This document shows positions 6,347 through 59,603 of a stretch of DNA of 64,000 nt, piece by piece. Below the pieces are notes generated by a model. That model did not search any database, had not been told where the DNA came from, and worked only from the letters and a program-made list of their open reading frames with translations. Origin of the DNA: a candidate division FCPU426 bacterium (lineage in GTDB: Bacteria; Oederibacteriota; Muellerivitia; Muellerivitales; Muellerivitaceae); the NCBI GenBank assembly GCA_027452205.1, contig DAIDGV010000024.1, positions 94,750-158,749 of the forward strand, in the 5' to 3' direction. Made by a program: the position numbers and the translations under genes. Numbering within the stretch: the first letter of the stretch is position 1; the number at the start of each line of letters is the position of its first letter.

Positions 6347-6358
6347 CCTGAAACAAAA

Positions 6359-6380
6359 AAGCCCGGCGGGTGCCGGGCTT
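6359..6380 (-). terminator. Rho-independent terminator closing the glycan block
   Basis: A perfect 9-bp stem, AAGCCCGGC / GCCGGGCTT, encloses the loop GGGT. On the minus strand it is followed by TTTTTTGTTT, a strong terminator 27 bases after the stop of the 57-residue lipoprotein gene. On the plus strand the tail is weaker (GAATGGTTTT), but it may also serve the convergent repeat-protein gene that ends at 6346. Confidence 0.85.
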
Positions 6381-6406
6381 GAATGGTTTTGATCTTCAGT
6401 GAAGGA

Positions 6407-6580: not shown

Positions 6581-6590
6581 CGCACGCCTC

Positions 6591-7574
6591 CTAGAAGAAT
6601 CTTATCCCTGAAATAGTGTAATTAATAGTGATGAGGCCCGACTGATAAGCGTTTTCTTCGGTCCAGGCAAAGAAAGACAGGCTTTGAAGCTGAGTCCCCG
6701 AGAAAGTAGGCGGGTTGGAAATCGACCCATAACCATACTGTTTCAAATCACCCCAATATTTTTGGATCAAGACCCACTGATTCTTGGGCGTATTGGTATA
6801 GTCATATTCAAAGCCATCATAACAATGGGTATCCCAGGGGTTTGGATCATTGGGCGGGGGGCTGGTCGTATTGATGCAATTACCGCTACCCGTCCCCGAT
6901 GGCACCTGGTCCTGGACATAAGCGTTGAAAACACGGTCCACCGCGCTGTCATTGAGCGCGATAAACACATAAAACTCGATTCCCTGGTAAGGTGAAACAT
7001 CATAGTTCTTGGTGCTGCTAAAACTTAAAGGGAAAACTTCCAATTCCACGTTATCCAGGTTCCCCGCCCCAGGGGGATAAAGCGAACACTCGGGGTCGTT
7101 GATCTCTCCATTGACACTGATACCGTACTGGTCATAACCATCGGTCAATCCGGTCGGCACATAAGAAACGTTATAACCAGTTACGGCGACATTGGTACAT
7201 GGGCCACTATAGACATAATTTTCAGGCGGGGCAGGAGGTGCGCCTGTATTGATTCTTGCGTTGGGGACTAATTCCAGGTTCAGAGCATCTGGGTTATAAA
7301 CAAAGTATCCTGAATTGACCATTTGAAAGGTCGTTGGGTTATTGCAAACCGTTATCGGGGTCGACCAAGAGGTCATTTCAACGGTACTAGAACTGCCCGC
7401 GCCATAGATATTGGAATTGACTGTGGCCTTCGTGCTGGTGATATTCACTAGTTGATAAGTATCTACCGTCGGACCACTCACCGCCGCCGCGGTAGGGTTT
7501 TTGGACGTACAGCCCGCCGAGGCGATCAAAAGGCAAAGACAGAAAACCAAGCAGATCCTAGAATTTGATTTCAT
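6591..7574 (-). CDS. Lipoprotein with a carbohydrate-binding-like beta-sandwich
   Basis: 327 residues. The start MKSNSRICLVFCLCLLIASA leads to a lipobox IASAGC (Cys22). The body is beta-rich with many Asn, Tyr and Pro. The C-terminal half reads like a galactose-binding/CBM-type jelly roll: a GIEFYVFIAL strand, WVLIQKYWGDLKQYGYG, LQSLSFFAWTEENA and a last strand ITINYTISGIRFF. The same closing pattern (a strand ending ..RF/EF-F/Y) occurs in the lipoprotein at 15524 and the protein at 20995. Its start overlaps the end of the preceding porin-like gene by 17 bases. Probably surface- or periplasm-facing; a substrate-binding role is inferred from fold-like features and context only. Confidence 0.7.
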   Translation of the reverse strand: MKSNSRICLVFCLCLLIASAGCTSKNPTAAAVSGPTVDTYQLVNITSTKATVNSNIYGAGSSSTVEMTSWSTPITVCNNPTTFQMVNSGYFVYNPDALNLELVPNARINTGAPPAPPENYVYSGPCTNVAVTGYNVSYVPTGLTDGYDQYGISVNGEINDPECSLYPPGAGNLDNVELEVFPLSFSSTKNYDVSPYQGIEFYVFIALNDSAVDRVFNAYVQDQVPSGTGSGNCINTTSPPPNDPNPWDTHCYDGFEYDYTNTPKNQWVLIQKYWGDLKQYGYGSISNPPTFSGTQLQSLSFFAWTEENAYQSGLITINYTISGIRFF

Positions 7575-10464
7575 AACTCATCTCCACGTATTGAACATTC
7601 ACAGTGCCATTCAAGCTGCCCGTGCCCGCCACGGCGTTCCCCGGTGAGGTAATAATAGCACCATACCCGGCCAAGGTGGTCCCGGGCGCCAACCCGGAGT
7701 AAGAAGCCCCATTATTGGTGCCGGCTTCAAAGCTATAGTCCAAATGCAGTTTGGAATGGTCGTCAAGACTGAAAGTCGTGGATAACAGAATGTCGCTATA
7801 GGCATCGTTCACCGTAAAAGGGGTGTAAGTCCCCAAGTCCTCGTTGTTATAGATATAGCTGTAACGGGCCACGGTCGTGCCGTCGATACCCATATCGGTC
7901 CCTGACGCCGTACGCAACCCTCCGGCCGCAGTCACTTCCCACCAATTGAAAAGACCGATCCTGACACCCGTCAGCCACCAGATATCTTGCAAAGTGCCCA
8001 CTTGGCTGGACGTCGATTCATAACGGATGTTGGTACCCAGTTCTAAAGGCGTTTTCAATTGCAAGGCCGGGCCAAAATCGAAGGAGGGGCCCAAGTTGAC
8101 GTAAACGAAATTACGGACGGGCGAGACGCCGTTATAACCGTCCACCGCGACAGTGGAATTCCCGCCGCTGCTGGCCACCACATTCGGCTCGATCTCACTC
8201 AAGAAATAGACCGACCCGGGCAGTTTAAAGGACTTGTCCGGCAAGGAATTGATATCCAAGTCGAACCCGATCCCCTGGCGGTTCGGGGTGGCCAAGCCAT
8301 AAGGAAAGACGTTGTCTTGGGTACGGTCGTAAAAACTATAGATTGCGTTAGGCCGGGGCACATCGGTGTAATAGGTATTCGCCCCGCCGACAAGCCTTTG
8401 GTCGATCAAGAAATATTGGCCCCTCAAGGGAGCGCTGAAGAGACCCGGGCCGCTGTTAAGTGAGGTCAAAGCTGTTCCGACACTCAGGTCGTCTTGGCGG
8501 GTCTGGGCCAAGGGCGAGTAATAGTTCGGGCCCACGTTCAGATAATCGAAGGTCAGCTTGGTGCCGTCAAATTGGAAATAAGGATTGGCATAGACCGCGA
8601 AGTCGCTGATGGTCCGGGCGCCGTTGGCCTTGTCGTCCTGGTATTCGGAGAAGGACCCCTCATATTGAGCGCCCAAATAAACATCCCCTCCGAAACCGAT
8701 CTTGAGTTCGGGGTTCATGCTGGTAATGCGGTATTGGTGGGCCCAGGTATTGGGATCATGCGGATCGTAAATGTATTCCGTGACCGCCCCTGCCGCATTA
8801 CCCGTTGGATTCCCTGCGTAATTCAGGTACTCGACTTGTTGTCCATAGGGATTCCACAACTCGTCCAAAATGACCAAATAGCCCTTGGCCGAAAGTTGAA
8901 AAGAGAGATCGCCCATATAAAGTTTTTTGAGCTCGATGTCCGCCTTGCCGGCATAGATGAAGTCGGTGAAGAAATTCGTTTGATAGGCCGTATTCGCGTT
9001 GGTCAACGTGCCCGTATTGGCGCTGTTCAACCAACCGTTATTCGGCCAGTCGTTGAAACCGTTGCTGATCATGTGGACAAAGGCCGACACTTTGATACTG
9101 TCCAGCACGTTCGAATCGGGCCAACCTAAAGAGGTGCCGAGACGCACACCGCGGAAAGGCCAATCGGGCTCATGGTTGAAAAAGCTTTCATATTTATATT
9201 CGTCATCGGAGCGCGCGATCGGCTCGGGTTTATAGAAAAGATCCAAGTTGTTTCGGTTCCACATCGTCAAGGGCGTGTAGGACTCATAGAAGTCCCCCAG
9301 GTCCATGGTCATGAAATCCGGGCTGAACTGCATGGCAATCCATCGGAAATTTAAGGTGTCGAAATTAACGTTGTTCGGCGCGCCAAAAGCGTTGTTGTAT
9401 TGGGAATCATGGCTCAAGGGCAGGGCGGAAGTGCCCAATCGGATGATGGAATTCCATTGGAGCTGCTTGGTGATCGTGCCGACCGGGTTCAGGTCCAAGT
9501 AACCGTTCATATATTGGACTTCGGGATAGACATACTGCGGCGCCAGATAAGTGACCGCTTTGGCCCCGATATGGGTCACTGCCGTGGAAGGACCCAGGAA
9601 GGAATAGTTATTGTAGGTCTGTTGGGAAATACCGAACATCCGGCCGATGCCGTAGATCGAAACGTTCGGGGACTCGGTCAAGGACTTCACATCCCGCCAC
9701 AATTGATATTGATCGGCTTCGGCCTTGGTCAGGTCGTCCAACATGACGCCTTTGGCCTGCATGACCGCCTGCAGTTCCACCTCATAAGCCTCGTCCAAGG
9801 ATGTCAGGGCCGCTTCGGCGCTTTGGAGCAATTCGGGATGCTGGGCGTAATTGGGCGTCGGTTTGGCGGGCGGGGCGGCGGGCGGAGGCGTGGCCGCGGC
9901 GGCACTGGCATCGCTGTTCATGACGCTTTCCGACGGCGGAGGCGGGGCGGCATAATTATCATCGTCAGTCGAGGCGGCAGGCATGGCGCTGGTCATGGAA
10001 GGTTCGGCGGTCGGAGCGGCAGTGGCGGTCATGGCCGGCGCGGCGACCGCGGCACCCGGTGAAGCGACCGGTGTTGTAAGATCCGGCAATGGAACATTGC
10101 CGGCAGTGGAAGGAACGGAGGCTGAAAGGGCCGGGGAGGCCATAATGCCCGTCATGTCCGGCATCGGCGGCAAGGTCGTGTCCATCGCGTTGGCGGCCGG
10201 GGCCGGATTGGCGTCGGCTACCACGATGGTGTCATAGTTCTTTTGCGCTTTCAGGATAAGATCCGCCACTTCATAACGGGTCAGGGGCTTGGAAGAACTG
10301 CCTTCAGGCAAAAGCCCAGCGCTTTCCAGGGTCTGAAGCTTGGAATAGGTCGGGTCGTTCGAGGGCACTGACATGAACAGGTCGGCGCTGGCGGACGCAA
10401 GGCATCCTCCCGTCACCAGGAAGAAGGCCGCGGTAATAAGGAAGCGGTTAGAAACGGGCTTCAT
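7558..10464 (-). CDS. Large outer-membrane beta-barrel protein with SLH-like N-terminus (third of three)
   Basis: I chose the ATG at 10464 (MKPVSNRFLITAAFFLVTGG; 968 residues), with GGAG nine bases upstream; it overlaps the previous gene by 17 bases. After the signal peptide comes a short SLH-like unit (YSKLQTLESAGLL then LTRYEVADLILKAQ), an Ala/Pro/Ser-rich linker of about 130 residues, a helical segment (SAEAALTSLDEAYEVELQAV) and about 680 residues of alternating aromatic beta strands ending in SYEIKF. A terminal Phe is the usual signal for the BAM assembly machinery. The design resembles OmpM/SlpA-type porins that bind the cell wall through SLH domains. It is paralogous in layout to the next two genes. 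The transported solute is unknown. Confidence 0.75.
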   Translation of the reverse strand: MKPVSNRFLITAAFFLVTGGCLASASADLFMSVPSNDPTYSKLQTLESAGLLPEGSSSKPLTRYEVADLILKAQKNYDTIVVADANPAPAANAMDTTLPPMPDMTGIMASPALSASVPSTAGNVPLPDLTTPVASPGAAVAAPAMTATAAPTAEPSMTSAMPAASTDDDNYAAPPPPSESVMNSDASAAAATPPPAAPPAKPTPNYAQHPELLQSAEAALTSLDEAYEVELQAVMQAKGVMLDDLTKAEADQYQLWRDVKSLTESPNVSIYGIGRMFGISQQTYNNYSFLGPSTAVTHIGAKAVTYLAPQYVYPEVQYMNGYLDLNPVGTITKQLQWNSIIRLGTSALPLSHDSQYNNAFGAPNNVNFDTLNFRWIAMQFSPDFMTMDLGDFYESYTPLTMWNRNNLDLFYKPEPIARSDDEYKYESFFNHEPDWPFRGVRLGTSLGWPDSNVLDSIKVSAFVHMISNGFNDWPNNGWLNSANTGTLTNANTAYQTNFFTDFIYAGKADIELKKLYMGDLSFQLSAKGYLVILDELWNPYGQQVEYLNYAGNPTGNAAGAVTEYIYDPHDPNTWAHQYRITSMNPELKIGFGGDVYLGAQYEGSFSEYQDDKANGARTISDFAVYANPYFQFDGTKLTFDYLNVGPNYYSPLAQTRQDDLSVGTALTSLNSGPGLFSAPLRGQYFLIDQRLVGGANTYYTDVPRPNAIYSFYDRTQDNVFPYGLATPNRQGIGFDLDINSLPDKSFKLPGSVYFLSEIEPNVVASSGGNSTVAVDGYNGVSPVRNFVYVNLGPSFDFGPALQLKTPLELGTNIRYESTSSQVGTLQDIWWLTGVRIGLFNWWEVTAAGGLRTASGTDMGIDGTTVARYSYIYNNEDLGTYTPFTVNDAYSDILLSTTFSLDDHSKLHLDYSFEAGTNNGASYSGLAPGTTLAGYGAIITSPGNAVAGTGSLNGTVNVQYVEMSYEIKF

Positions 10465-45707: not shown

Positions 45708-46664
45708 TTACCGTCTTAATCGCCCGGCGGCTCTCTCTTCCAAGTAATTTTGATAGGTTTTATGGACGCCCTCCGGCAGGCTGATCGAAGCCTTCCAGCC
45801 CATCGCGGTCAATTTGGAAACATCCATTAATTTCCGGGGTGTGCCGTCCGGCTTAGAACTATCCCATCGGATCTCCCCTGCATAACCGACCGTGGACGCC
45901 ACTAAAGACGCCAATTCCTTGATCGAAACATCTTCTCCGACGCCCACATTGATCCAGTCCGCTGGACTATCCAATTTCAATAAGAACGCGCAAGCGTTCG
46001 CCAGGTCATCCACATGAAGGAATTCCCGCTTCGGCGATCCCGTCCCCCACAAGACGACGGCCGATTCGTTCTTTTCTTTAGCCTCATGGAATTTCGCGAT
46101 CAAAGCGGGCAGCACATGGGAATTTTGGGGATGGTAATTGTCGCCCGGGCCGTAAAGATTGGTCGGCATGGCCGAATAATAAAGCGCTTTGTACTGCCGG
46201 CGGTAAAACTGGCAAAGCTTGAGCCCCGCGATCTTGGCGACCGCGTAAGCCTCATTGGTCGGCTCCAAGGGGCCGGACAACAAGCAATCCTCCGGCATCG
46301 GTTGGGGCGCCATTTTGGGATAGATACAAGAACTGCCCAAGAACAAAAGCCGCTTCACACCGGTTTTCCAAGCGCCGTCGATCGCGTTCGACGCGATCAT
46401 CAGGTTTTGATAGAGAAATTCCGCGGGATAGGTATTGTTCGCCAAGATCCCGCCCACCTTCGCGGCGGCCACGAGAACCACATCCGGTCTTTCTTTTTGG
46501 TAAAAATCCAAGACCTTTTTTTGATCGGTCAGGTCCAATTCGGCGCGGCTCCGAAGGATCAATTCGACCTCTTTTTCTTTTTCGAACCGGCGAACCAAAG
46601 CCGAACCCACCATCCCGCCGTGTCCCGCGATGAATAATTTCAAAGGAGCCCTCTTGGTTTCCAT
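45708..46664 (-). CDS. fcl: GDP-L-fucose synthase
   Basis: 318 residues. Fcl/WcaG marks: [19 protein letters not shown] (NADP site), [76 protein letters not shown] (Tyr/Lys pair) and [20 protein letters not shown]. It converts GDP-4-keto-6-deoxymannose to GDP-L-fucose by epimerisation and reduction. The gene starts 3 bases after gmd, so the two make GDP-fucose together. Confidence 0.95.
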
Positions 46665-46667
46665 GGT

Positions 46668-47714
46668 TTATGAAACGCTCTTTTTTTCTTTCTTGGCCAA
46701 TTCAAAGTCATGATCTACCATGCGTTCGACCAATTGCTCAAAAGTGGTCTCATTATGCCAGCCAAAAGCCTTCTTGGCTTTTGAGGCATCGCCTAATAGG
46801 TAATCGACTTCCGACGGCCGTAAATAACGCTCGTCGAATTTGACATGCTTTTTCCAATCAAGACCGGCATAGCCGAAGGAAACTTCCAAAAACTCTTTGA
46901 TCGAATAGGTCTTACCTGTCGCGATCACATAATCATCCGCTGTTTTTTGTTGCAACATCATCCACATGGCTTTCACGAATTCCTTAGCGTCGCCCCAATC
47001 CCGTTTCGCGTCCAAATTGCCTAGATAAAGGCTTTTTTGCAGTCCCACCTTGATCCTCCCGATGGCCCTTGTGATCTTACGGGTCACAAAGGTTTCTCCA
47101 CGCCGTTCGCTTTCATGGTTGAAAAGGATCCCATTGGAAATATGGAGCCCATAAGCTTCTCGATAGTTTTTCGCCGCCCAGAAGGAATAGAGCTTCGCGA
47201 CGCCGTAAGGACTGCGGGGATGAAAGGGGCTCTTTTCGGTGTAACCTTTTGGGGGACAATCCAACCCACCGTAAAGTTCCGAACTGCTGGCCTGATAGAA
47301 TCGGGCTTTGGGACAAGTTTCCCGCATCGCTTCCAATAGTTTGATCGTCCCAACACCCGTCACTTCACCTGTATATTCGGGCTGGTCAAAAGAGACGCGA
47401 ACATGGCTTTGAGCGCCCAGGTTGTAAATTTCATCGGGTTTAACTTGGGATAGAAGCTTGAACAATCCGGATGAGTCGCTGAGATCCCCATAATGCAGGA
47501 ACAAGTGAACCCCATGAATGTGAGGGTCCTGGTAAATATGGTTGATCCGTTCCGTGTTGAACGACGAAGCACGACGGATCAAACCGTGAACTTCGTATCC
47601 CATCCCTAAAAGAAAATCGGCCAACCAAGAGCCGTCTTGGCCGGTTATCCCGGTAATGAAAGCTCTCTTGGGTTTATGAGTCTCTTTTGGATGAACGGTC
47701 TTTGTTTTTTTCAT
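46668..47714 (-). CDS. gmd: GDP-mannose 4,6-dehydratase
   Basis: 348 residues from the ATG at 47714 (AAAGG upstream); an ATG at 47747 would add 11 residues. Family marks: [20 protein letters not shown] (NADP site), [81 protein letters not shown], and [20 protein letters not shown]. It performs the first step to GDP-fucose/GDP-rhamnose-type sugars. The second step enzyme, fcl, follows directly. Confidence 0.95.
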
Positions 47715-47868
47715 TTGGTCGTGCCTTTGAAGTAAATATTCCGACATAAAAACTAGATCGGCGAAGAATTATAAGTGACTAAATCGAATTTGTGGGAAAC
47801 CTCATGATGATTTATTGCCCTAAACTAAGCGATCCATTAAACCCCGTTTTAAAGGACTTTGATCGACT

Positions 47869-48514: not shown

Positions 48515-50665
48515 ATGATAGATCCGTTCAAAACCGAATCTCGATTCAACCATCCAATGGAAGAATCATATGAAAGACCCTTTTTTAACATGTCCTCAAA
48601 ATACACCGTTCTCGTCAACTCCTCGGATGGTTTCGAGGATTGCTGGGAACCTTTTTTTAAACTTTTCAATAAATACTGGCCTTCTTGCGATGCCCCTATC
48701 CTGCTCAACACCGAAAAAAAGGAATGGTCTTTCCCCGGCTTAACCATTCATTGCAGCCAAGTTCAAGGTGATTCTAAATCCAGACTGACCTGGAGCGAAT
48801 GTTTACTAAAAGCCCTGGATCAAGTCAAAACCCCATTGGTCCTTTATTTCCAAGAAGACTATTTCATCCATCAACCTGTTCGGGCCGATATCGTCGAGAC
48901 TGCAGCCAATTACATGATGGCTCATCCTGACATCAAACATATCGCGTTAACGAAGCACGGCAGCCATGGGCCTTTTGAGCGTCATTCGGAGGATTGGCTG
49001 CAAACCATCCGTCAAAAAGCCCGCTACCGCATTTCAACCCAAGCCGCGCTTTGGCGGGTTGAAACGCTCAAATCTTATCTTCGCGCCAAAGAAAATGGAT
49101 GGATGTTCGAGATCTACGGCACTTGGCGAGCCCATAAAATAAAAGAAACTTTTTTAAGCGCCAAGTTCGATCAAGCCCACGGTGGCCCCGCTATTGATTA
49201 TCTGCATACTGGCATCATCAAGGGAAAATGGCTCAAAGCCATTCAGCCTGTATTTGAAAAAAACGGGATAAAAATAGACTACAGCCTGAGGGGTTTTTAT
49301 ATTCCAAAACACCCGCTCGTTCGCAAATTCGAGGTCCTTAAAAAATTAATTGAAAACTCCTGGCTTTTCGATCAAACCGGGGCTATCAAGATATTCCGTT
49401 CTTCTCTTTTGGTCACTTTATTGACTTTAAGTGGCAGCGCGCTCGGCTTCTTTGTCCAATTGCTTATTGCCAAACATTTCGGAACCAAGGTTGATGTTGA
49501 CGCTTATTTCTTCGCCCTCAGCGCACCCATTTTTTTGGCTGGCATGATAGCCGCCATGTTGAGCTATATTGTCGTCCCTCGCCTCGTCGCCCTCGAGAAA
49601 GACGTTCAACATCAACGCCATTATATGGGATCACTTTTATGGACCATCTCGATCCTTTCTCTAGTTTTTGGGCTGATCGGTTTTTTTGTTTTTCCAATCC
49701 AAAAAAGTTTATTGCCAACAACTTCAAAAATTATTTCTTATCCTAATCTTCAGTTTTTGATCGTTTTGACATGGTTCACAGGAGCATTCCAAATATTATC
49801 CGGCCTGCTGACAGCTTGTTTGAACTCAGTCCGAAAATATTCCACCGGAGCGATACTAGGCATTCTCCCCTATATCGGCATGTTGATCCTGCTTGGAATT
49901 GGCGGCAACAACGCAACCATCGCTTTGGTTCCCTTGGGAATGTTAATCGGAACGATGACCGCCACCGGGCTTGGCCTTTATTGGCTAAGAGATTATTTAT
50001 TTCCATTGGAGCTTAATAATTTTCTAAAGAATGAGATCAAGGAACTTCTTCTTCATTCACCTTACGTCGTCATCGCCATGAGCTGTTTTTCAGCTTACTC
50101 CGTCATAGATTCCTATTGGGCTCCTCGCGCTGGTGATGGGGCTTTGGCCTCGTTAGGGTATTCTCAGCGTCTCATTATTGCTTTAGGCAATCTTGCCGTT
50201 GCTGGACCCTCTGCCGTACTAGTACCTCATTTTGCTGAATTTATTCGTGACAAAAATGTTACTGGTTTTCGACGATTCCTTGTACGATCACTTTTGGTCG
50301 TCGGAGGAATATCCACCCTTATTGCTTTATTTTTAGCTGCGTTTTCTGAAAAATTGATCCACATCTTGTTCGCTCGCGGTGCTTTTGGCGATCAACAAGT
50401 CGTACTTGTTTCCAGCGTTTTACGTCACATGACACCAGGCATGGTATGCATGTTGATGTCTGTAATCGCATTAAGAGCTCTTTTTTGTACCGAAAATTCA
50501 AAAAAAATAGCTGCCATCTTAGGTTTTTCATGGATGGTCTTATATTTTATAACTTCCTATTTTTTATACCCCGCAGGCGCTGCTAGTTTAGCTTGGGGTT
50601 ACAGCATAGTTTGGCTCGGCTATCTTACATTCATCTGCTTCATTCTTTTTAAAAGGAACTCTTGA
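48515..50665 (+). CDS. Fusion: glycosyltransferase-like domain plus MurJ/Wzx-type flippase
   Basis: The frame is open from 48425, but that ATG lies inside the divergent gene; 48515 is my choice (716 residues), 48590 is also possible and no site has a good ribosome-binding site. Residues about 25-270 are soluble with a GT-A look: TVLVNSSDGFEDCWEPFFKL, then LVLYFQEDYFIHQPVRADIV (EDYF as a DxD-like site), YRISTQAALWRVETLKSYL and GPAIDYLHTGIIKGKW. From about 300 on, 12-14 spans form an MVF-family flippase: LGFFVQLLIAKHFGTKVDVD, AYFFALSAPIFLAGMIAAML, YIVVPRLVALE, SYWAPRAGDGALASLGYSQR and ILFARGAFG. There is no Met near the join. A single protein could add a sugar and flip the lipid-linked product. 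The gene is AT-rich. Confidence 0.82.
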   Translation: MIDPFKTESRFNHPMEESYERPFFNMSSKYTVLVNSSDGFEDCWEPFFKLFNKYWPSCDAPILLNTEKKEWSFPGLTIHCSQVQGDSKSRLTWSECLLKALDQVKTPLVLYFQEDYFIHQPVRADIVETAANYMMAHPDIKHIALTKHGSHGPFERHSEDWLQTIRQKARYRISTQAALWRVETLKSYLRAKENGWMFEIYGTWRAHKIKETFLSAKFDQAHGGPAIDYLHTGIIKGKWLKAIQPVFEKNGIKIDYSLRGFYIPKHPLVRKFEVLKKLIENSWLFDQTGAIKIFRSSLLVTLLTLSGSALGFFVQLLIAKHFGTKVDVDAYFFALSAPIFLAGMIAAMLSYIVVPRLVALEKDVQHQRHYMGSLLWTISILSLVFGLIGFFVFPIQKSLLPTTSKIISYPNLQFLIVLTWFTGAFQILSGLLTACLNSVRKYSTGAILGILPYIGMLILLGIGGNNATIALVPLGMLIGTMTATGLGLYWLRDYLFPLELNNFLKNEIKELLLHSPYVVIAMSCFSAYSVIDSYWAPRAGDGALASLGYSQRLIIALGNLAVAGPSAVLVPHFAEFIRDKNVTGFRRFLVRSLLVVGGISTLIALFLAAFSEKLIHILFARGAFGDQQVVLVSSVLRHMTPGMVCMLMSVIALRALFCTENSKKIAAILGFSWMVLYFITSYFLYPAGAASLAWGYSIVWLGYLTFICFILFKRNS

Positions 50666-51991
50666 TTGATTGCCGGAACATTTTTGTTATTAAGTATCGG
50701 ATTAGTCATTGGACAATATTTTTACGACGGGAAAAGATTTGATATTTTCAATCCAAAAAATTTGTTTCAAGTCTATTTCATTATTCAATTACCATTGGTT
50801 TTATATCTTGGGACAACTTACGATCTTCCTGGCTTTAAACTTCTATCCCCAAATACTTCGAGTGATGAAATATTAATGTTAGCGAGTTTATTCTTTTTCT
50901 CTCAACTTCTAATGGTTGTTGCTTACTATTTTTTTGCCGGTACAAAAACATTACCAATAGCATGGAGTCAAAAATATAACTGGAACTATGCTCGCGTAAA
51001 AACCATTTGCATACTTTTATTTATTTTAGGCTACTTTTCTTTTTTTTATTTAATGCAAATAAATGGAGGCTATGACGAATTTGTAAAAAATCGTGAAATT
51101 TGGCGTGCTGGTGGTATGACCGGTCAAGGCTGGTTAATTTTCCCTGCAACTTCCATGTTGTCAATAGCTGCTATTGCTTTTTTAATTGTTTCAAAAAATA
51201 CATTTCAAGGCAAACACAGTTATTTGAAATTAATGCTGTTAATTATTTTTACAGTTCTACCTGCGACACAATTGGGCTTCAGAGGATTTATACTATTACC
51301 AATCATACAAATCGTTTTTATTTATCACATGAGAATAGAAAAATTAAAAATAAAAAAAATAGTCCCTATTTTTTTATTTATCATCCTTTCTTTTACAACT
51401 TATGGCATTTATCGCGAAAGTGTCGTTTCGATGACAAAGGGCTTTGATTTAGATGTCGCAATAAATTACATCGAACAACATCCAGAATCGGTTTATGACA
51501 TATTTTTAAGGTCAAAGGGAGCCGACGTCGTTGCAGTCGTAATCGATAGAACATATGGGATCCAAGATTATGTTTTATTTGTGCCTTCCATTATTGAATC
51601 CTTAACAATTGTTATCCCGCGGGCCATTTGGCCAAATAAACCCATTCCATTATCGGTAAGATTTTCAGAACTTTTCTTTGGAATTGGCGGTGGTATTTCT
51701 CCGACAATCGTTGGCGAAGCATATTGGCAGGGTGGTTTAATTGGGGTTTTTTTAACAATGATTGTTGTCGGTTTTGTTTTCCGGTATTACTTCAACACCG
51801 TTCTAGCTTCTACAAATAACAATTCATCTATATTTACACTAACAGTAATTTTCCCATCTTTAGTCATGATGGCGGAAGCGATTCAAGGTTACCTTAATGG
51901 AATTGTATATCAACTGATCTTTTGTGCATTTATGGTTTTTGTTTTCTCTCTAAATTCAAAAAAAACAATAAATAGAACCCCAAAAACATGA
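50666..51991 (+). CDS. Wzy-like O-antigen/oligosaccharide repeat-unit polymerase
   Basis: 441 residues from a TTG at 50666, right after the previous stop, with AAGGA nine bases upstream. About 11 spans with one large loop are visible. A central QLGFRGFILLPIIQIVFIYH and a later loop RAIWPNKPIPLSVRFSELFF, then GISPTIVGEAYWQGGLIGVF, match the layout of Wzy/oligosaccharide repeat-unit polymerases, whose Arg and Gly positions are conserved rather than long motifs. It would join lipid-linked repeat units in the periplasm. Strongly AT-rich, as wzy genes often are. Confidence 0.82.
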   Translation: MIAGTFLLLSIGLVIGQYFYDGKRFDIFNPKNLFQVYFIIQLPLVLYLGTTYDLPGFKLLSPNTSSDEILMLASLFFFSQLLMVVAYYFFAGTKTLPIAWSQKYNWNYARVKTICILLFILGYFSFFYLMQINGGYDEFVKNREIWRAGGMTGQGWLIFPATSMLSIAAIAFLIVSKNTFQGKHSYLKLMLLIIFTVLPATQLGFRGFILLPIIQIVFIYHMRIEKLKIKKIVPIFLFIILSFTTYGIYRESVVSMTKGFDLDVAINYIEQHPESVYDIFLRSKGADVVAVVIDRTYGIQDYVLFVPSIIESLTIVIPRAIWPNKPIPLSVRFSELFFGIGGGISPTIVGEAYWQGGLIGVFLTMIVVGFVFRYYFNTVLASTNNNSSIFTLTVIFPSLVMMAEAIQGYLNGIVYQLIFCAFMVFVFSLNSKKTINRTPKT

Positions 51992-53106
51992 AAGCCTTAC
52001 TAGTGCTACGTTCAGCAGCTTTAGGTGACTTTATTCTCTCCGCGCCAGCTTTTGATCAACTTAGAAGAGTTTTTCCACATAACAAGATCATTTTTGTAAC
52101 TACCCAATCTGTTAGTAAAAAACAACGCATTAAAGTGGCCGACTATGCAGGAAATACCATTAACATTCCTTGGGTTGATATGGCGATACCACATTTGATC
52201 GATGAAACTTTTGTCATTGATAATGTTCTTAATTTTTATTCACTGTGGGCCCTACGAAAGAAACTAAAAACTTATGACTTTGAAACAGCTATTCTCATGG
52301 TCGACCCCTGCGCACCGTGGTTAGGTCGTATCAAAAAACTATTGCTCATCTATTTCTTGGTCGGTTTTATTCCAACCTTGGGATGGCGCAGCCAGGGTTC
52401 CCTAAAAGGTAATCTTTCGGAATTAAACCGAAAAGGTTTATTAAAACATCACGTTTATGGGCCTTTACAATTTTTAAGCGAAATCACCCCTGCAAAAATT
52501 TGCAGAGAAGAAGAAATAGTTTTCGACTTAAAACCCGGTAAGGAAGCGGAAGATTGGGCTGAAAATTGGATAAAAACGAATCAATTAGAGAACCGACCGA
52601 TTATTGCCGTAGCTCCTGGAGCAATTCACGCCCATAAACAATGGCCCGTTGAATCTTTTAAAGAACTCATCCATCAATTGCTTGACCGCTATCCAAACAA
52701 TGTTCTTGTAGTTTTAGGGTCGCCCAAAGACCGATCCATCGGCGAGGAATTAAAAAGAAGTCATCTGGAATCCATTTTTAATCTAGCGGGCGAAACTTCC
52801 ATTTCTCAATCTGCCGCTTTGTTGAAAAAATGCGCTCTTTTGGTTGGCAACGATGGGGGGGCGATGCATCTAGGCGACGCTATGGGCTGTAAAGTTGTTT
52901 CGATAATCCCGGGCATTGAATACCCCGACTCGATCGAACCTTGGCACAATAAGGACCTGGCGGTCCGGCACCCGGTTCCCTGTGCGCCTTGTTATTCTTT
53001 CACTTATTGCCCTGAAAAACACAATAAATGTATGACTGAATTATCAGTGGAGTCGGTTTTTGAAAAATGCCGACGAGTTTTGGACAAAACTAGATTGGAA
53101 ATATAG
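51988..53106 (+). CDS. Glycosyltransferase family 9 (heptosyltransferase-like)
   Basis: 372 residues; ATGA overlap with the wzy-like gene. GT9 marks: ALLVLRSAALGDFILSAPAF (phosphate-binding Gly-Asp), PIIAVAPGAIHAHKQWPVES, FKELIHQLL, FNLAGETSISQSAALLKKCA, LVGNDGGAMHLGDAMGCKVV. The end has a Cys cluster (VPCAPCYSFTYCPEKHNKC), seen in many heptosyltransferases. It probably adds a heptose or other sugar from a nucleotide donor in the cytoplasm. Its last 17 bases overlap the convergent GT2 gene. Confidence 0.9.
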   Translation: MKALLVLRSAALGDFILSAPAFDQLRRVFPHNKIIFVTTQSVSKKQRIKVADYAGNTINIPWVDMAIPHLIDETFVIDNVLNFYSLWALRKKLKTYDFETAILMVDPCAPWLGRIKKLLLIYFLVGFIPTLGWRSQGSLKGNLSELNRKGLLKHHVYGPLQFLSEITPAKICREEEIVFDLKPGKEAEDWAENWIKTNQLENRPIIAVAPGAIHAHKQWPVESFKELIHQLLDRYPNNVLVVLGSPKDRSIGEELKRSHLESIFNLAGETSISQSAALLKKCALLVGNDGGAMHLGDAMGCKVVSIIPGIEYPDSIEPWHNKDLAVRHPVPCAPCYSFTYCPEKHNKCMTELSVESVFEKCRRVLDKTRLEI

Positions 53107-53848
53107 GGCGCTTTTGCTTTTGAAAGCTTTTCAAAACATAGATGAAAAAATAGAACCCTCTTTCAAGTCCTCTCAACCCCAGTTCACTTCGCAACAATTC
53201 CCAGCGTTGAACCATGATCTTAAATTTGTTTCTGCCACGAGATCTTGGAACTAGCCGATAAAAAGCGGTTTCCTTTGGCATACAATCAACAACAAAACCT
53301 CTTGAAGTCAATTCACACCACAGAAGAAAGTCTTCGATCGGCTTATCTTTAAAAACAATGTCTCCGACCTGACTACGGTCCACCATCATTGTCAAACACC
53401 CGACACTCGATCCCATTAGGATTCTGTTTGTCGTCTTCAATGGAAATTTAATCGGAGCACTCAAAAGCATTCCGCTCGAATCCATATTACGATAGTAGGT
53501 ACAGCAGAGAGCTGATCCGTGGCTTTTAATGAATTCCAATTGCCATTCCAATTTTTCCGGGACCCATAAATCATCCGCGTCAATGAAGGCCAAATAGCGG
53601 CCTTGGGCCCACCGAATGCAAAGATTTCGAGCCTGAGAAGGCCCGGTCTTGCCTGTTGACCGACGCACTTTAATTTTCGAATTTGATTTTTCCAATTCTT
53701 CCAAAAAAACCGAGGTGCCATCGGTTGAACCATCATCGCAAATAATCCATTCCCAATCTTTATAGGTTTGGTTTAAAACGGATTGAGCTGTGGTTGGCAA
53801 ATATTGAATTGCATTGTAACAAGGGGTAATGATCGAAATTTCCGGCAT
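53090..53848 (-). CDS. Glycosyltransferase family 2
   Basis: 252 residues: ISIITPCYNAIQYLPTTAQS, DWEWIICDDGSTDGTSVFLE (nucleotide-binding Asp pair), GPSQARNLCIRWAQGRYLAF and the DxD site FIDADDLW. The later part (IEDFLLWCELTSRGFVVDCM) includes the ED that often holds the catalytic base. It is an inverting GT-A enzyme with a typical length for the short GT2 group. Four bases separate it from the wbaP-like gene, so it is part of the export operon. Confidence 0.93.
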   Translation of the reverse strand: MPEISIITPCYNAIQYLPTTAQSVLNQTYKDWEWIICDDGSTDGTSVFLEELEKSNSKIKVRRSTGKTGPSQARNLCIRWAQGRYLAFIDADDLWVPEKLEWQLEFIKSHGSALCCTYYRNMDSSGMLLSAPIKFPLKTTNRILMGSSVGCLTMMVDRSQVGDIVFKDKPIEDFLLWCELTSRGFVVDCMPKETAFYRLVPRSRGRNKFKIMVQRWELLRSELGLRGLERGFYFFIYVLKSFQKQKRPIFPI

Positions 53849-53851
53849 AAA

Positions 53852-55291
53852 TCACCGCGCGCCTTTGGCCATAGCGATGACAGTTCTTAAAATAATGGAG
53901 AGATCGAACGCCAGGCTGTAATTGCTGACATAATAAAGATCATAAGAAAGTTTGGTCTTGGTGTCTTCATGGCTGGACGCGTATCGGTAACGGATCTGCG
54001 CCCAACCCGTCAGCCCCGGCTTGACCAGGTGCCGCAGATGATATTGAGGTAATTGTTTCTCTAACTGGGTGACGAACTCCGGCCTTTCCGGCCGTGGACC
54101 CACGAAAGCCATATCTCCCCTCAAAATATTCCAAAATTGGGGCAGTTCATCCAGTCGGCTTAAACGAAGGAATTTTCCGATCGGGGTCACCCGATCGTCG
54201 TTCTTTTTCGCCCAGACCGCGCCATTCTTTTCCGCGTCAATCCGCATAGTCCTGAATTTCCAGATATCGAACGATTTTCCATACTGACCCACTCGTTTTT
54301 GGCTGTAAAAAATCGGCCCGGGCGAGAATATCTTCATTAAAACGATAATGACCAAACCAACGGGCAAGCTGGCCAAAAGACCGATCACCGCCAAGAAGAT
54401 ATCCAAGCAACGTTTATCCCATTGTCCCGCGTAGGTCCCGGTGCAAAAGCCATGAATCCTCAACAATTGTCGATCCGTCAAGGTGTTCAAGTCGATCTCG
54501 CCGAATATCTTTTCTTTGAATCGGGAATAAGGCCGAATCAAACAACCTGATTTGCTGATCTCCAAATAATGGTCCATTACCCAATTAGCAGCCTGGGAAT
54601 GATCTTCGACAATGACCTCATGAGGATTCAACGTCCTTAAAACCTGCGGCAGTTCGGCCTCGAATTCGGCCAACGGTGTTTTTTCCGTGACCGGTAAAAA
54701 AAACGCTGGCAGGAAAAAATTCGAGAACGATGCTTCGATGCGGGCATTCATTTCCTCGAATACCGAGGGGCGTCCGACAAAAACCACCAGGTGGCGGGCC
54801 CGGGCCACCCAGCCCCGGGTGACGATGCGGAATAGGACTGTCAGCACCACGCAAAATAAACCTGAGTAAAAAATGATATACCGACCAACTTGATCATGGA
54901 CCGTCCAAGTAGTCGCTATTGTCAAAATGGCCATGGCGCTAAAAGTCGAGATCAAGGACGTTCCTAATATCCTCGAGACCGAATTGAGGTGCACAAAATC
55001 ATGGGAATCCAGGATGTGGCGGAAACAAGCCATAAAAAATCCAAAGATCAAGCCCAACTTGAGGGGGCTATAAAAGATCGGAAGACCGTTGTAATAGGAT
55101 GGCGAAGCCCAATGGGCTAAAAGAAAGGAAACAAGCCCGATGAGGACATCGAAAAAGATCCAGACCCATGGCGGAAGGTAAATGATCGTCCGGGCGATCG
55201 GCCTGAAAAATCTCAAGCGCTTGTGGGAAGTGCGGGAACCCCTGACATAGGATGCGGTATTTTTTTCGGTCTCTTTGACGGCGGTATTCAT
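53852..55291 (-). CDS. WbaP/WcaJ-type initiating polyprenyl-phosphate sugar transferase
   Basis: 479 residues. Four to five N-terminal spans (YLPPWVWIFFDVLIGLVSFL and following) lead to a Rossmann-like part and then the catalytic PF02397 region: CLDIFLAVIGLLASLPVGLV, FSPGPIFYSQKRVGQYGKSF, WKFRTMRIDAEKNG, RLDELPQFWNILRGDM, VGPRPERPEF and KPGLTGWAQIRYRYASSHED. It loads the first sugar phosphate onto undecaprenyl phosphate. Eight bases follow the kinase gene, so the two are co-transcribed. The donor sugar cannot be inferred. Confidence 0.94.
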   Translation of the reverse strand: MNTAVKETEKNTASYVRGSRTSHKRLRFFRPIARTIIYLPPWVWIFFDVLIGLVSFLLAHWASPSYYNGLPIFYSPLKLGLIFGFFMACFRHILDSHDFVHLNSVSRILGTSLISTFSAMAILTIATTWTVHDQVGRYIIFYSGLFCVVLTVLFRIVTRGWVARARHLVVFVGRPSVFEEMNARIEASFSNFFLPAFFLPVTEKTPLAEFEAELPQVLRTLNPHEVIVEDHSQAANWVMDHYLEISKSGCLIRPYSRFKEKIFGEIDLNTLTDRQLLRIHGFCTGTYAGQWDKRCLDIFLAVIGLLASLPVGLVIIVLMKIFSPGPIFYSQKRVGQYGKSFDIWKFRTMRIDAEKNGAVWAKKNDDRVTPIGKFLRLSRLDELPQFWNILRGDMAFVGPRPERPEFVTQLEKQLPQYHLRHLVKPGLTGWAQIRYRYASSHEDTKTKLSYDLYYVSNYSLAFDLSIILRTVIAMAKGAR

Positions 55292-55298: not shown

Positions 55299-57011
55299 CT
55301 AGTTCAATTTATTCAGGGTGACTTGGTCATTTTTTTGTTTTGCGTCGTGACCATAGCCATAACCGTAGCCGTAACCATAGCCGTAGCCGTACGAACTTCT
55401 ATTCATGTCCACACAGTTCAAGGCCGACCCTAAAACCGGGGCATTCACCGCCTGCAAAAGTTTGGCGGCGCGGTGGATCTCGGAACGTCTTGTCTTGTCA
55501 TATCGGCCCATCAGAACCACACCATCCAAATAAGTCGCCAAAACCACCGAATCCGTCACGGGAAGAATAGGAGCCCCATCAATGACGATATAATCGAATT
55601 CTCGTTTGAGGTCTTGAATGAGTTTTTTCATGGTCGAAGAGCCCAAAAGTTCCGCCGGATTCGGGGGAATGAACCCATTCGGCAAAACCCAAAGGTTTTC
55701 GGGGCCGAATTTGACGATCATATCTTCAATATCGCCTTTGCCCGCCAAAAGCATGGGTAACCCGATCGTCTTGTCCACTTTCAGGCCAAAAAGGATGCTG
55801 ATGGAGGGTTTTCGAAGGTCCGCGTCGATCAAGAGGACTTTTTTACCGGTGTGGGAAAGGCTCAACGCCAAGTCGGAATTAACCAATGTTTTGCCTTCTT
55901 CCGGATTGGAAGAAAAAACGCTGATCGCTTGGAGCTTTTGATCCACATGGGAAAAAGTGAGGTTGGTTCGGAACACTTTGAAGCTTTCGCGGTAAGCCGA
56001 AAATTCAAAATATGGATTATCGATCAGATACTTTGGCGAGAACCGTTCGGTGGTTGAGAACGCGTCTTTCCCATCTTTTTGGCGGAAATTGGGAATGATC
56101 GCCAAAGGCGTCAAATTGGTCGCCCGTTGGATATCGTCCTCTTGTTTGACCCGGTCCTGCATTTTTTCGCGCAATAAGGCCAAAACGATCCCCCCGAAAA
56201 GTCCGACCATCAAACCTAAAACCAGGGTCAAGCCGATCTTGGGTTTTAACCTCAGGTCCGGCGGCCGAGCCGCGTCCATGACCACAATACCCGAGTCATC
56301 CACATTCGCCGCGATCCGGGCTTCCTGGTCCTGTTCCAAAAGCCACTTGTAGTTGATCTCGTCCGCCTGGGCCTCGTGCGTAGGATCGAGGTAATTCTTT
56401 TCCAGCGCTTCATCCGACACCAACTTTTGTTTCATTTCGGTCAGTTGTTCATGGATGAATTGATAACGGTTCTGAGCGCTTTCTCGGCTTAACTCCAAAT
56501 TCACCTGGATGAACCCTTCGGCCCAAGTATTGGCCAATTGCGCCGCCGCGGAAGGTGTACCCGCGTCCGCTTGGACCGTTATGACGTTCGATTGTTTGGC
56601 GTTCCCGACTTTGACGTTTTTCTGCAAGGCACGGATCAGTTTTTGGCCCGTGGGGTCATTGAAATGCAAATATTCGGGAAATTCAGTATTGGAACCCAAT
56701 TTTAGTTTTTGGATCGTATATTCCGCCACGGAGCGGGCCTGAGCGATCTGAAGATAAGTCTCAATGGGGTCGCCGCCCGTCGGCATCATGGCTAATTGCC
56801 GGATAGCGTTACTGGTAGACTGGGTTGATTCCGGGACCTTGACCGTAGTGACGGCTTCGAACGTCGGCGGCCATAAAAAAGCGTAAAGGGCCGCCAAAAC
56901 AAAACAGCCCAAAACGACTTTCAAGACAAAAAAACGATGATGATATAAGACCCGCGAGACTTCTTTAAAATCGATCTCTGCGTCATTCTCTAAAATTGTT
57001 TGGCTTTCCAT
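55299..57011 (-). CDS. Wzc-like bacterial tyrosine kinase and chain-length regulator
   Basis: 570 residues. Wzz part: IDFKEVSRVLYHHRFFVLKV, first span, FEAVTTVKVPESTQST, coiled stretch, second span (LKPKIGLTLVLGLMVGLFGG). Kinase part: Walker A FSSNPEEGKTLVNSDLAL, Walker A' VLLIDADLRKPS, Walker B FDYIVIDGAPILPVTDS. The tail reads RSSYGYGYGYGYGYGYGHD: seven Tyr alternating with Gly, in place of the usual loosely spaced Tyr cluster. In Wzc the phosphorylation state of this tail controls oligomer state and polymer export. ATG follows GGGGAAAAC; 24 bases separate it from the wza-like gene. Confidence 0.95.
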   Translation of the reverse strand: MESQTILENDAEIDFKEVSRVLYHHRFFVLKVVLGCFVLAALYAFLWPPTFEAVTTVKVPESTQSTSNAIRQLAMMPTGGDPIETYLQIAQARSVAEYTIQKLKLGSNTEFPEYLHFNDPTGQKLIRALQKNVKVGNAKQSNVITVQADAGTPSAAAQLANTWAEGFIQVNLELSRESAQNRYQFIHEQLTEMKQKLVSDEALEKNYLDPTHEAQADEINYKWLLEQDQEARIAANVDDSGIVVMDAARPPDLRLKPKIGLTLVLGLMVGLFGGIVLALLREKMQDRVKQEDDIQRATNLTPLAIIPNFRQKDGKDAFSTTERFSPKYLIDNPYFEFSAYRESFKVFRTNLTFSHVDQKLQAISVFSSNPEEGKTLVNSDLALSLSHTGKKVLLIDADLRKPSISILFGLKVDKTIGLPMLLAGKGDIEDMIVKFGPENLWVLPNGFIPPNPAELLGSSTMKKLIQDLKREFDYIVIDGAPILPVTDSVVLATYLDGVVLMGRYDKTRRSEIHRAAKLLQAVNAPVLGSALNCVDMNRSSYGYGYGYGYGYGYGHDAKQKNDQVTLNKLN

Positions 57012-57035: not shown

Positions 57036-57746
57036 TTATTTATAAACCGTCACGAAAACCACCGCCGCGGTGGACAAGATGCTGGCGATGACAGCCCACT
57101 CTTCGATCGAAGGCAATCCGCTCTTCGGGACCATTAACACATCGCCCGGATAAAGAAGCGGTTCATCGCCCTTGTAATTTTCATTTCTCAAATAGTCGTT
57201 CAAATTGAACCGGCTCTTTTTCTTACCATGAATGATCACCGCACCGCCCAAATCGGCGTCTTTAGAAGGCCCACCGGCTTGGGCGAGGATCGAGACCAAG
57301 GAGGGGTCCCCCTCGATCATGAATTTGCCCGGATGATTGACCTCACCCAAGACCGAAACTTTATAATTTGCCGAGTTACTGATCAACACGGTCACTTGGG
57401 GATACTCGATATATTTACCCAGTTTTTTCATGAGCAGTTCGCTGGCTTGTTCCGGGGACATTCCTGAAATTTTCACTTCATGCAGGAAGGGGAAAAAGAT
57501 CTTCCCGTCCGCATCCACCAAATAATCGGAAGGCAATTGGCCGTTCGTCGCCATTTTTCCCTGGGCCAAGGCCGCGGAAGGCGCCGATGAGTGGTTGTAA
57601 ACCAAGATCGACAAATGGTCCCCCGGGCCGATGAGCAACGGGGGATAATTAGTTGGTTTCGCCAAGAGTGTCGCAACAGGCCCACCCCACACCAAAACGG
57701 TTATCAGACCCAGGCAAAGAACTTTTCGAATGATCTTGAATGGCAT
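57036..57746 (-). CDS. Wza-like polysaccharide export protein (short OPX form)
   Basis: 236 residues from the ATG at 57746 (MPFKIIRKVLCLGLITVLVW); the frame extends to 57920 but the added part has no ribosome-binding site. Poly_export region: LLIGPGDHLSILVYNHSSAP, LVDADGKIFFPFLHEVKISG, EYPQVTVLISNSANYKVSVL. SLBB region: GEVNHPGKFMIEGDPSLVSI, LAQAGGPSKDADLGGAVIIH, LLYPGDVLMVPKS. A C-terminal span (WAVIASILSTAAVVFVTVYK) replaces the usual helical barrel. No lipobox Cys is obvious. Short forms without the barrel rely on another outer-membrane protein, and two barrel proteins are encoded just upstream. Confidence 0.9.
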   Translation of the reverse strand: MPFKIIRKVLCLGLITVLVWGGPVATLLAKPTNYPPLLIGPGDHLSILVYNHSSAPSAALAQGKMATNGQLPSDYLVDADGKIFFPFLHEVKISGMSPEQASELLMKKLGKYIEYPQVTVLISNSANYKVSVLGEVNHPGKFMIEGDPSLVSILAQAGGPSKDADLGGAVIIHGKKKSRFNLNDYLRNENYKGDEPLLYPGDVLMVPKSGLPSIEEWAVIASILSTAAVVFVTVYK

Positions 57747-57889
57747 CGAATCTCTCGCAATGTATTTAAATTTGCTTGATAAAAAGCCGCGCTCTTTTGA
57801 GCTTTGGAGTAACCAAGCAGAAACCGGAGTAAATATTATCAAATTTGCTAATTTTTTTATTAAAACCTTTAACTCAAACCAAAAACGTT

Positions 57890-58780
57890 TTAAGGGTCGA
57901 AAAAGAGCCCAATTCCCCAATGATTATCACTTTGTTGAATGAACTGCCCATAAGGGTTGTTGCCGTTGGCATAAGTCAGGGCCAATCGAAGACTGCGTTC
58001 ATGATCCTTTTCCCATTTCCACTGAAAACCCAGCTCAAAATATTGATCCAAAACATTGGCTACTTCATCGTTCACTTTTAAGTCGTAAGTGAAATAAAGA
58101 CGTAAAGGCGAACCGATAAAATCCACGGTGTCCGAATGAAGTTCGATCCCCGAATGTAAATAAAGAGGTGGATTGCCCGGCGGGGTCATGTTGGTCCAAT
58201 AGCCCAATCCGACATAAGGCCGAAAATAATGGGAATCTTCAAAAGAAAGGAGCCACTGAAAACCCGAACGGGTATAAGGAATTCCGGTTCCATATAAATG
58301 ATCATTGATGCCAACAAAATTATCCGAATCGCCAATTCCATCGCCGAAATGGGCCCCCATCCCCATCCATTCGATTCGGTTCGCGAAAACCGCCGTTGAT
58401 TCCGCCAAATAAAAACCCCAATACCAATCATCAGCCAAAACCGAATAGCTGGCCCATTGCCAACGATCGAGCAGGAGATGCCCCGCCCCCAGGGCCCCTA
58501 AACTCCAGCGATAACCATCGGCGGTATCCAACTTGAACAGATCGACGCTGGCGCCAAGAGCCGTATAAACATTTTGGGAATACTCTTTGAAGTTGGTGTC
58601 CGGAATAATGTAGCAAGCCGGTTCTAAAGGATCCCCGATCAGGGGGGCGAATACATGACCCGACGGCAAAAAGGAGACCGTCTCTTGGGCAAGACACGTT
58701 TGTGAAAAAATGGAACTAACGATCAAGACAAGGGCTAAAAAAAGCGTTTTCTTAAGATCGATTCCAGGTTCAAGGATCAT
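57890..58780 (-). CDS. DUF1207-like outer-membrane protein (second of a tandem pair)
   Basis: 296 residues; the ATG overlaps the end of the previous gene by 11 bases and AGGGG lies seven bases upstream. Signal peptide ends CLAQET. The start of the mature protein (FAPLIGDPLEPACYI) and the end (QFIQQSDNHWGIGLFFDP) match those of its neighbour (FHPIIGNPLEAQNRL; QLYMQQVDHWGLGVYYDP), with aromatic beta strands between. DUF1207 is named from memory for this pattern; the role is unknown. Its position before wza suggests an outer-membrane partner for export, yet this is inference. Confidence 0.75.
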   Translation of the reverse strand: MILEPGIDLKKTLFLALVLIVSSIFSQTCLAQETVSFLPSGHVFAPLIGDPLEPACYIIPDTNFKEYSQNVYTALGASVDLFKLDTADGYRWSLGALGAGHLLLDRWQWASYSVLADDWYWGFYLAESTAVFANRIEWMGMGAHFGDGIGDSDNFVGINDHLYGTGIPYTRSGFQWLLSFEDSHYFRPYVGLGYWTNMTPPGNPPLYLHSGIELHSDTVDFIGSPLRLYFTYDLKVNDEVANVLDQYFELGFQWKWEKDHERSLRLALTYANGNNPYGQFIQQSDNHWGIGLFFDP

Positions 58781-59603
58781 AATAAACCCCTAAACCCCAA
58801 TGATCGACCTGTTGCATATAAAGCTGCCCGAAATTGACGCTGCCTTGATAGTGAACGACGGCGAATCGGATGGTTTGGCCGTTTTCCTGACCCTTGAATT
58901 GCAGTCCTAATTGGATCGTTTGATTGTTCGAAGAGGTTTCGTTGTCGATTTCCAAATGGTAAGTGCCATATCCCCGCAGGTTCATTCCCAAAAATTTGAA
59001 AGAAGACGAGTAAATTTCCATTCCAGCAAAGGGGAAAAGTAAATTATCCGGTGTTGGAGAAGCGCTATCCTCCCATCGGCCCAATCCGGCATAAAACCGT
59101 AACCAAGATTTCGGGTAAAAAGAAGCCGTCAGATTGGTGTTTTCCCGGCTGTAATAGGTGTAATACCAGCCGCCCGGTTGCTGCAATTCATCGCCCAAAG
59201 TTCCCTTATAGTGGATCCATTCGCCTTTGAAAGCAAAAGCCCCGGTTTGTTCGCTTAAATAAACACCCCCGAACCAATCCAACGCCTCAAAATTCATGGC
59301 CGTTGGGGCGGAATTGTCCATGAGGAAATAAGCGTCCGCCGTGATCCCGACACCCCATTGCACATCCGGGTTCGACTTCCACCTTAAGAAATCGACCGTC
59401 CCCCCTACCGAACCCTCTGTTTGACCGTTGTCAAAAAAAGTCAGCCGGTTCTGGGCCTCAAGCGGATTACCGATGATGGGATGAAAAAGAGGCGCCCATA
59501 ACGAGCAAAGCACCGGATCGCCTTCAGCTAAGAGCGGTTTTGTTGGCAACAACAAGAAAAGAGAAAGAAGAACGGAACTAAGAAGGCTGATCGAATATCT
59601 CAA
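58770..59603 (-). CDS. DUF1207-like outer-membrane protein (first of a tandem pair)
   Basis: 277 residues from a TTG at 59603, the only start in the leader that keeps a full signal peptide (SLLSSVLLSLFLLLPTKPLL). The ribosome-binding site is weak (GAGG, 14 bases). Mature part opens with LWAPLFHPIIGNPLEAQNRL and shows strands such as WFGGVYLSEQTGAFAFKGEW, WLRFYAGLGRW and MNLRGYGTYHLEID. It is the paralog of the next gene, which starts inside its last codons (coupled translation). Likely first gene of the wza-wzc-wbaP operon; the 149-base gap before it diverges from the phosphatase gene and should hold promoters. Confidence 0.75.
   Translation of the reverse strand: MRYSISLLSSVLLSLFLLLPTKPLLAEGDPVLCSLWAPLFHPIIGNPLEAQNRLTFFDNGQTEGSVGGTVDFLRWKSNPDVQWGVGITADAYFLMDNSAPTAMNFEALDWFGGVYLSEQTGAFAFKGEWIHYKGTLGDELQQPGGWYYTYYSRENTNLTASFYPKSWLRFYAGLGRWEDSASPTPDNLLFPFAGMEIYSSSFKFLGMNLRGYGTYHLEIDNETSSNNQTIQLGLQFKGQENGQTIRFAVVHYQGSVNFGQLYMQQVDHWGLGVYYDP

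Follow-up and report, generated by a model that had tools for sequence, protein, structure and literature searches.

Predicted fusion of a glycosyltransferase-fold domain to a Wzx-type flippase in a polysaccharide gene cluster of a candidate division FCPU426 bacterium

The gene cluster

The window analysed here is a stretch of 64,000 nucleotides from a candidate division FCPU426 bacterium (assembly GCA_027452205.1, contig DAIDGV010000024.1, positions 94,750 to 158,749). Its predicted genes make the locus a Wzx/Wzy-dependent polysaccharide cluster. A fused open reading frame on the forward strand (48515..50665, +), which encodes a predicted glycosyltransferase-fold domain followed by a putative flippase, is succeeded by a Wzy polymerase gene (50666..51991, +; PF14296 6e-7, TIGR04370 3e-16) with AAAAGGA before its TTG start, and by a GT9 (heptosyltransferase-type) glycosyltransferase (51988..53106, +; PF01075 3.4e-26). 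The genes on the opposite strand encode a TuaG-like GT2 glycosyltransferase (53090..53848, -; PF00535 2.9e-36; NF047683 1.4e-56, under its cut-off), a polyprenyl-phosphate sugar-1-phosphate transferase as the priming enzyme (53852..55291, -; PF02397 9e-69, TIGR03025 over cut-off), a Wzc-type chain-length regulator with tyrosine autokinase (55299..57011, -; PF02706, TIGR01007 over cut-off), and an outer-membrane polysaccharide export (OPX/Wza) protein (57036..57920, -; PF02563 2.7e-19). Upstream of the fused frame are found a GDP-mannose 4,6-dehydratase gene, gmd (46668..47747, -; PF16363 1.5e-134), an NAD-dependent epimerase gene (45708..46664, -; PF01370 2e-59) that is probably fcl-like (GDP-fucose synthase) from its position and sequence, and a gene for a DUF218 protein. 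Beside the OPX gene, two adjacent overlapping frames (57893-59603, -) both match DUF1207 and are likely a tandem pair.

The TGA stop of the flippase passes directly into the TTG start of Wzy in the same frame (50663-50668), so that readthrough would yield a glycosyltransferase-flippase-polymerase protein. Promoter and terminator scans gave no signal above that of shuffled sequences.

Extent of the fused frame and its junction

An earlier note on this DNA, made from the letters alone, had taken the frame to run from 48515 to 50665. The frame itself is sound, with no stop across its 716 codons; the start is probably further downstream. ATG 48590, which gives 691 rather than 716 amino acids, is the more likely start, since stand-alone relatives of the N-terminal domain have their first residue where the fused frame has Met26 (48590), and since the gap to the divergent gene (48483) is then 106 bp, compared with 31 bp from ATG 48515.

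Alignment with a split pair of homologous genes in Arcticibacter svalbardensis (locus L003) places a linker of seven residues, DQTGAIK, at residues 286-292 (49370..49390, +), and the fused frame has ATA (Ile293) where the flippase gene of the split pair has its ATG start. The observation that no internal Met lies near the join is correct, because codons 197 to 299 contain no ATG, GTG or TTG, and because TTG 299 and TTG 303 are located at or within the predicted first transmembrane (TM) helix, with no Shine-Dalgarno-like sequence upstream.

The N-terminal domain

Residues 26-285 (48590..49369, +) form a soluble domain distinct from the flippase. Stand-alone relatives of this domain exist, and it is 69% identical to a protein of genome G001 and 51-52% identical to the Arcticibacter homologue. 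When the domain was searched alone, as the earlier note had proposed, profile and structure tools gave different answers. No credible family was found for it in Pfam, NCBIfam or PHROGs, nor in Pfam or PHROGs over 25 relatives; the GT2 profile (PF00535 and its relatives) gave no match at E up to 10, and a sequence search of the PDB returned no credible match. An AlphaFold model built on 25 sequences has high confidence (pLDDT 88.7, pTM 0.85), and the structures closest to it are GT-A enzymes. In VIA, B4GALNT1 ranked at the top (Z 17.0, rmsd 2.9, 179 residues), followed by GnT-I (Z 14.3), a Leptospira glycosyltransferase (Z 13.9), and WrtF (Z 13.8), while RmlT, TarS, TarP, and SpsA, all GT-A, scored lower (RmlT and TarS in the group of Z 13-14). 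Foldseek matched the model to GT-A enzymes with E-values down to 1e-7, WrtF being the best, and a viral library gave the same GT-A result. The model thus supports a GT-A glycosyltransferase fold for the domain. The fold is in common with GT-A enzymes of known structure (B4GALNT1, GnT-I, WrtF, TarS, SpsA) over about 180 residues, although the identity is 8-15% and no common sequence family was found. The guess of a GT-A-like domain, and against it the concern that the first 270 residues might prove unrelated to glycosyltransferases, had both been raised beforehand; since the fold matches GT-A enzymes, it is the former that gains support.

Three acidic residues, Asp38, Asp115, and Glu199, are invariant in 24 aligned relatives (alignment A4; 716-aa numbering) and several Trp residues are near-invariant; all three acidic residues and the conserved Trp are intact in the fused protein. 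Asp38 (48626..48628, +; D13 in domain numbering) lies in a VNSSD segment after strand 1. Asp115 belongs to the EDYF motif (E114-F117; 48854..48865, +), which follows strand 83-88 in the numbering of the domain model. The end of that strand is the usual DxD position in GT-A enzymes. The alignments contain one invariant Asp at this expected strand end, within ED.F or DD.F, and the EDYF site that had been noticed earlier is therefore part of a conserved ED.F site. A full DxD is absent from some GT-A enzymes. Glu199 (49109..49111, +), in a WMFE segment, may be the catalytic base. Comparison with the G001 protein gave a dN of 0.21 with saturated synonymous sites, which indicates that the domain is under purifying selection. 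We know of no activity for any member of the family. Judged from the model and from the profile libraries used, none of which names it, the domain would represent an uncatalogued glycosyltransferase-fold family. A fucose donor was considered, as suggested by the neighbouring gmd and fcl-like genes and by the best Foldseek E-value, that of the fucosyltransferase WrtF; it was set aside, as many GT-A enzymes score alike.

Distribution and possible origin of the N-terminal domain

Relatives of the domain were gathered from genomes and viral contigs. Of 395 Bacteroidia genomes, 19 have the domain, as do five more genomes in an Arcticibacter-family sample (301 genomes), and many phage contigs from the rumen and from environmental samples also encode it; in a domain-wide sample of 384 genomes, it was found only in the source genome and in the family member G001. 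At the bacterial loci examined, it occurs as stand-alone frames of about 264-297 amino acids. Overall, these sequence matches describe a widespread unnamed family of stand-alone proteins of about 270 amino acids in Bacteroidia polysaccharide loci and in rumen and environmental phages. It is thus a sizeable glycosyltransferase-fold family of Bacteroidota and phages that is absent by name from the profile libraries used. In IMG/VR contigs (L007, L008, L031-L056) members are common and often about 219 amino acids long. Phage multi-glycosyltransferase proteins (L008, L031, L051; about 780 amino acids) carry the same family at their N-terminus, but its partners in the L008 protein are GT2 and GT4-like domains, not a flippase.

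In a phylogenetic tree, the N-terminal domains of the fused frame and of G001 cluster with those of Arcticibacter (L003) and G878 (L089), with support of 100/99. The stretch from the fusion through Wzy to GT9 has GC contents of 45, 43, 33, and 42%, compared with 52% for the window. Together, the tree and the low GC content would fit a transfer from Bacteroidota. The lowest value is that of the Wzy gene (50666-51991), which suggests that this part of the cluster was acquired recently.

The flippase half

Residues 293-716 (49391..50662, +) comprise the predicted flippase domain. Residues 293-714 match the Pfam MurJ family PF03023 with 90.5 bits (cut-off 27.4, E 1.2e-25), and the half is 30% identical to the L003 flippase (E 3e-52). 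In a sequence search of the PDB, MurJ was its sole match. Against TIGR01695, the MurJ lipid II flippase equivalog, it reached 82.3 bits, under the cut-off of 235.6. MurJ has 14 TM helices. Hydropathy, by a simple predictor, gave 12 TM helices in the flippase half, below the number of MurJ and compared with 14 in its split relative of L003. About 12 TM helices, together with neighbouring genes for Wzy, a priming enzyme, Wzc, and OPX, are as expected of Wzx. Since the half scores far under the MurJ equivalog cut-off and since a separate canonical MurJ is encoded elsewhere in the genome (G000:C3, E 6e-109), sequence comparison assigns it as Wzx-type and not as the lipid II flippase of this genome. 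The earlier description, a complete MurJ/Wzx-type flippase, therefore holds for the in-frame join and for the family (PF03023), whereas the half is complete only as a 12-TM Wzx by hydropathy.

Like the MOP-superfamily Wzx/MurJ flippases (PF03023), the flippase half exceeds the Pfam cut-off and is located in a polysaccharide cluster; the fused frame differs from them by its extra N-terminal glycosyltransferase domain and by its score under the MurJ equivalog cut-off. A full-length model was poor in the flippase (mean pLDDT 62, pTM 0.47) and too weak for the orientation of the domains.

Split relatives and the search for the same fusion

In A. svalbardensis (L003), a gap of 1 bp separates the homologue of the N-terminal domain (5995-6804) from a MurJ-like flippase downstream (6806-8353). 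The two families and their order are those of the fused frame, with identities of 51-52% for the N-terminal halves and 30% for the flippase halves. The L003 locus likewise belongs to a polysaccharide cluster: OPX- and Wzz-like genes precede the pair, and a membrane protein is encoded after it, in the position of Wzy. It differs from the fused frame in that the two genes, 1 bp apart, are in different frames and the flippase has 14 predicted TM helices. Such an adjacent pair of the same order is what a fusion between two co-transcribed genes would lead one to expect. In most relatives, the glycosyltransferase domain stands alone and is not beside a flippase, and no flippase was recognised within the 19 kb examined in G001, the nearest relative of the N-terminal domain. 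Therefore, the pairing of the two does not appear to be fixed.

The same fusion was sought in other genomes with a profile or the full protein, and it was not found beyond the source genome in 45 genomes of its own phylum, 395 of Bacteroidia, 384 domain-wide, and 301 of the Arcticibacter family, these samples overlapping. A peptide-pattern scan of 84,980 species genomes, which reaches close relatives only, returned one relative, L003. Among plasmids and phages, no fusion was found; the matches were weak ones to MurJ, a weak one to a Parabacteroides plasmid, and one gut contig with the N-terminal domain. Two sets of apparent fusions were rejected. In G011 and G012, the long MurJ frames consist of a canonical MurJ preceded by GC-rich DNA that stays open in frame over a long distance, and of the 949-aa open frames of G1097 and G1148, the DNA has a stop in the former and a 510-aa Wzx in the latter. 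The earlier note had feared that the fusion might be both unique and broken; it is unique among the genomes searched, and no break is visible. Since relatives encode the two parts as separate genes, the fused protein looks like a real, intact, single-case join of a glycosyltransferase-fold domain and a Wzx-type flippase. The architecture is new within what was searched, and its parts are of known kinds.

Other fusions of a flippase and a glycosyltransferase

The earlier note knew of no standard family with this order, which holds for the exact fusion in everything searched; as a kind, however, it has company, since fusions of the opposite order occur in two genomes. An 894-aa protein (L061, 5061-7745) has an N-terminal Wzx (Polysacc_synt_3, 1.5e-78) and a C-terminal GT61 domain (5e-24), and an 883-aa relative (L100, 1456-4107) is 47% identical to it over its length. 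A split version also exists in a third genome, with Wzx and GT61 as adjacent genes separated by a stop (L107, 683-2254 and 2309-3523). These proteins resemble the fused frame in having a flippase and a glycosyltransferase in one chain, but the order is reversed and the families, Polysacc_synt_3 and GT61, are other than those of its two domains. It therefore appears from sequence comparison that flippases and glycosyltransferases were joined at least twice, with parts from different families. Literature searches of limited coverage, with few subscription papers, found no account of a protein that joins Wzx or MurJ with a glycosyltransferase.

Proposed function

The explanation that we consider the most probable, with some reserve, is that the protein tethers a glycosyltransferase, on the cytosolic side, to the flippase of its own Wzx/Wzy pathway and derives from the fusion of neighbouring, co-transcribed genes. 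The GT-A fold, the conserved acidic site, the flippase family, the cluster, and the split relatives of the same order, on which it builds, are observed or strongly indicated. MurJ has a cytoplasmic N-terminus. The N-terminal domain would therefore be cytosolic, on the same side as the nucleotide sugars and the growing lipid-linked unit. With a nucleotide sugar as donor, it would add one sugar to the repeat unit carried on undecaprenyl diphosphate, the flippase would carry the lipid-linked units to the periplasmic side, and the Wzy encoded next door would polymerise them in the periplasm. In origin, two neighbouring co-transcribed genes, a state kept in Arcticibacter, may have been joined by loss of the stop codon and of the flippase start codon. 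The fused enzyme would supply a sugar needed for efficient flipping, with the tether holding producer and transporter together and presumably placing the product at the flippase entrance. That the added sugar is the last one, and that the unit is then handed to the flippase, is plausible. Against this tethered-enzyme explanation stand the single occurrence of the exact fusion and the stand-alone position of the domain, away from flippases, in most relatives, including G001 within the 19 kb.

Previous studies showed that the efficiency of Wzx depends on terminal side-branch residues, its selectivity being treated as a checkpoint (PMC6436433), and that incomplete units are flipped poorly (PMC4863624); a checkpoint role of the fusion would fit both. 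A comparable system that has been described is PssJ of Rhizobium leguminosarum, a terminal GT-A galactosyltransferase that completes a Wzx/Wzy unit with its last sugar, for which contacts with membrane proteins of the pathway were proposed and, when tested by two-hybrid, were ambiguous (PMC7589315). PssJ differs in being a separate protein, and the likeness drawn here is one of described role.

The main and serious rival is a neutral operon fusion, in which the stop between neighbours of one pathway was lost, the halves function as before, and the tether is without effect. The same gene order with a spacing of 1 bp in L003, the singleton status of the fusion with both domains viable separately elsewhere, and the short linker with no added domain are all consistent with it. 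However, ATA now stands at the internal start and no other usable start codon has taken its place, and the unrelated Wzx-GT61 fusion, found in two genomes at 47% mutual identity, suggests that joining is either tolerated over time or useful. On balance, we regard a neutral fusion as possible but rather unlikely. An unlikelier alternative is that the flippase mainly serves as a membrane anchor for a glycosyltransferase that would otherwise be soluble or peripheral, in which case the added sugar need not be the last. At the C-terminal end of the stand-alone relatives is a basic stretch (5-10 K/R) that could bind membrane, and in the fused protein this stretch runs straight into the first TM helix. 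Its retention in the fusion means, however, that anchoring was already available, and its amphipathic moment does not clearly exceed that of shuffled sequences (reached by 0.04-0.4 of shuffles). It is very improbable that the GT-A domain is catalytically dead and now serves as a substrate-recognition module for the flippase; the DxD-like site (ED.F) has just one invariant Asp and no activity is known to us in the family, but D38, D115, E199, and the conserved Trp are all kept, and the purifying selection seen against G001 (69% identity, dN 0.21) argues against such decay. An assembly or sequencing artefact is the least credible of all, for although no second genome searched has the fusion, the contig is 700 kb long with the locus in its interior and belongs to a genome of 28 contigs and 99.4% completeness, the halves share one frame with no shifted stretch, and a single base error could hardly delete both a stop and a start codon.

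Beyond the tethered enzyme, a wider proposal may be put forward tentatively, and we would not expect it to hold in full: fusions of glycosyltransferases and flippases could be a device that has evolved repeatedly and independently to couple completion of the unit to its flipping, with two inventions (GT-A-Wzx and Wzx-GT61) and with the N-terminal domain as an uncatalogued family. The fused enzyme would then add the very residue for which the flippase checks, so that only finished units exit the cytoplasm.

How the flipping of unfinished lipid-linked sugars is avoided is an open question; the selectivity of Wzx is regarded as a key checkpoint, and the physical mechanism behind it is under debate (PMC6436433). 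A transferase and a flippase in one chain offer a direct test system, as the two could be unlinked and a leak of unfinished units looked for. If the N-terminal domain adds the last sugar, the fusion would also identify an enzyme-flippase pair directly, a task that usually proves difficult in polysaccharide clusters.

Some further arrangements were also seen. At L061, a stand-alone member of the N-terminal domain family is located immediately after the Wzx-GT61 gene. Two other proteins, in two genomes (L095, 2-2725, -; L096, 6119-8989, -), combine a MurJ-like flippase with an N-terminal polytopic membrane domain of about 470 residues that has no Pfam match. DUF6492 proteins occur near MurJ-like flippases, directly upstream at L093 (8206-9075, -) and one gene further upstream at L003 (5142-5990).
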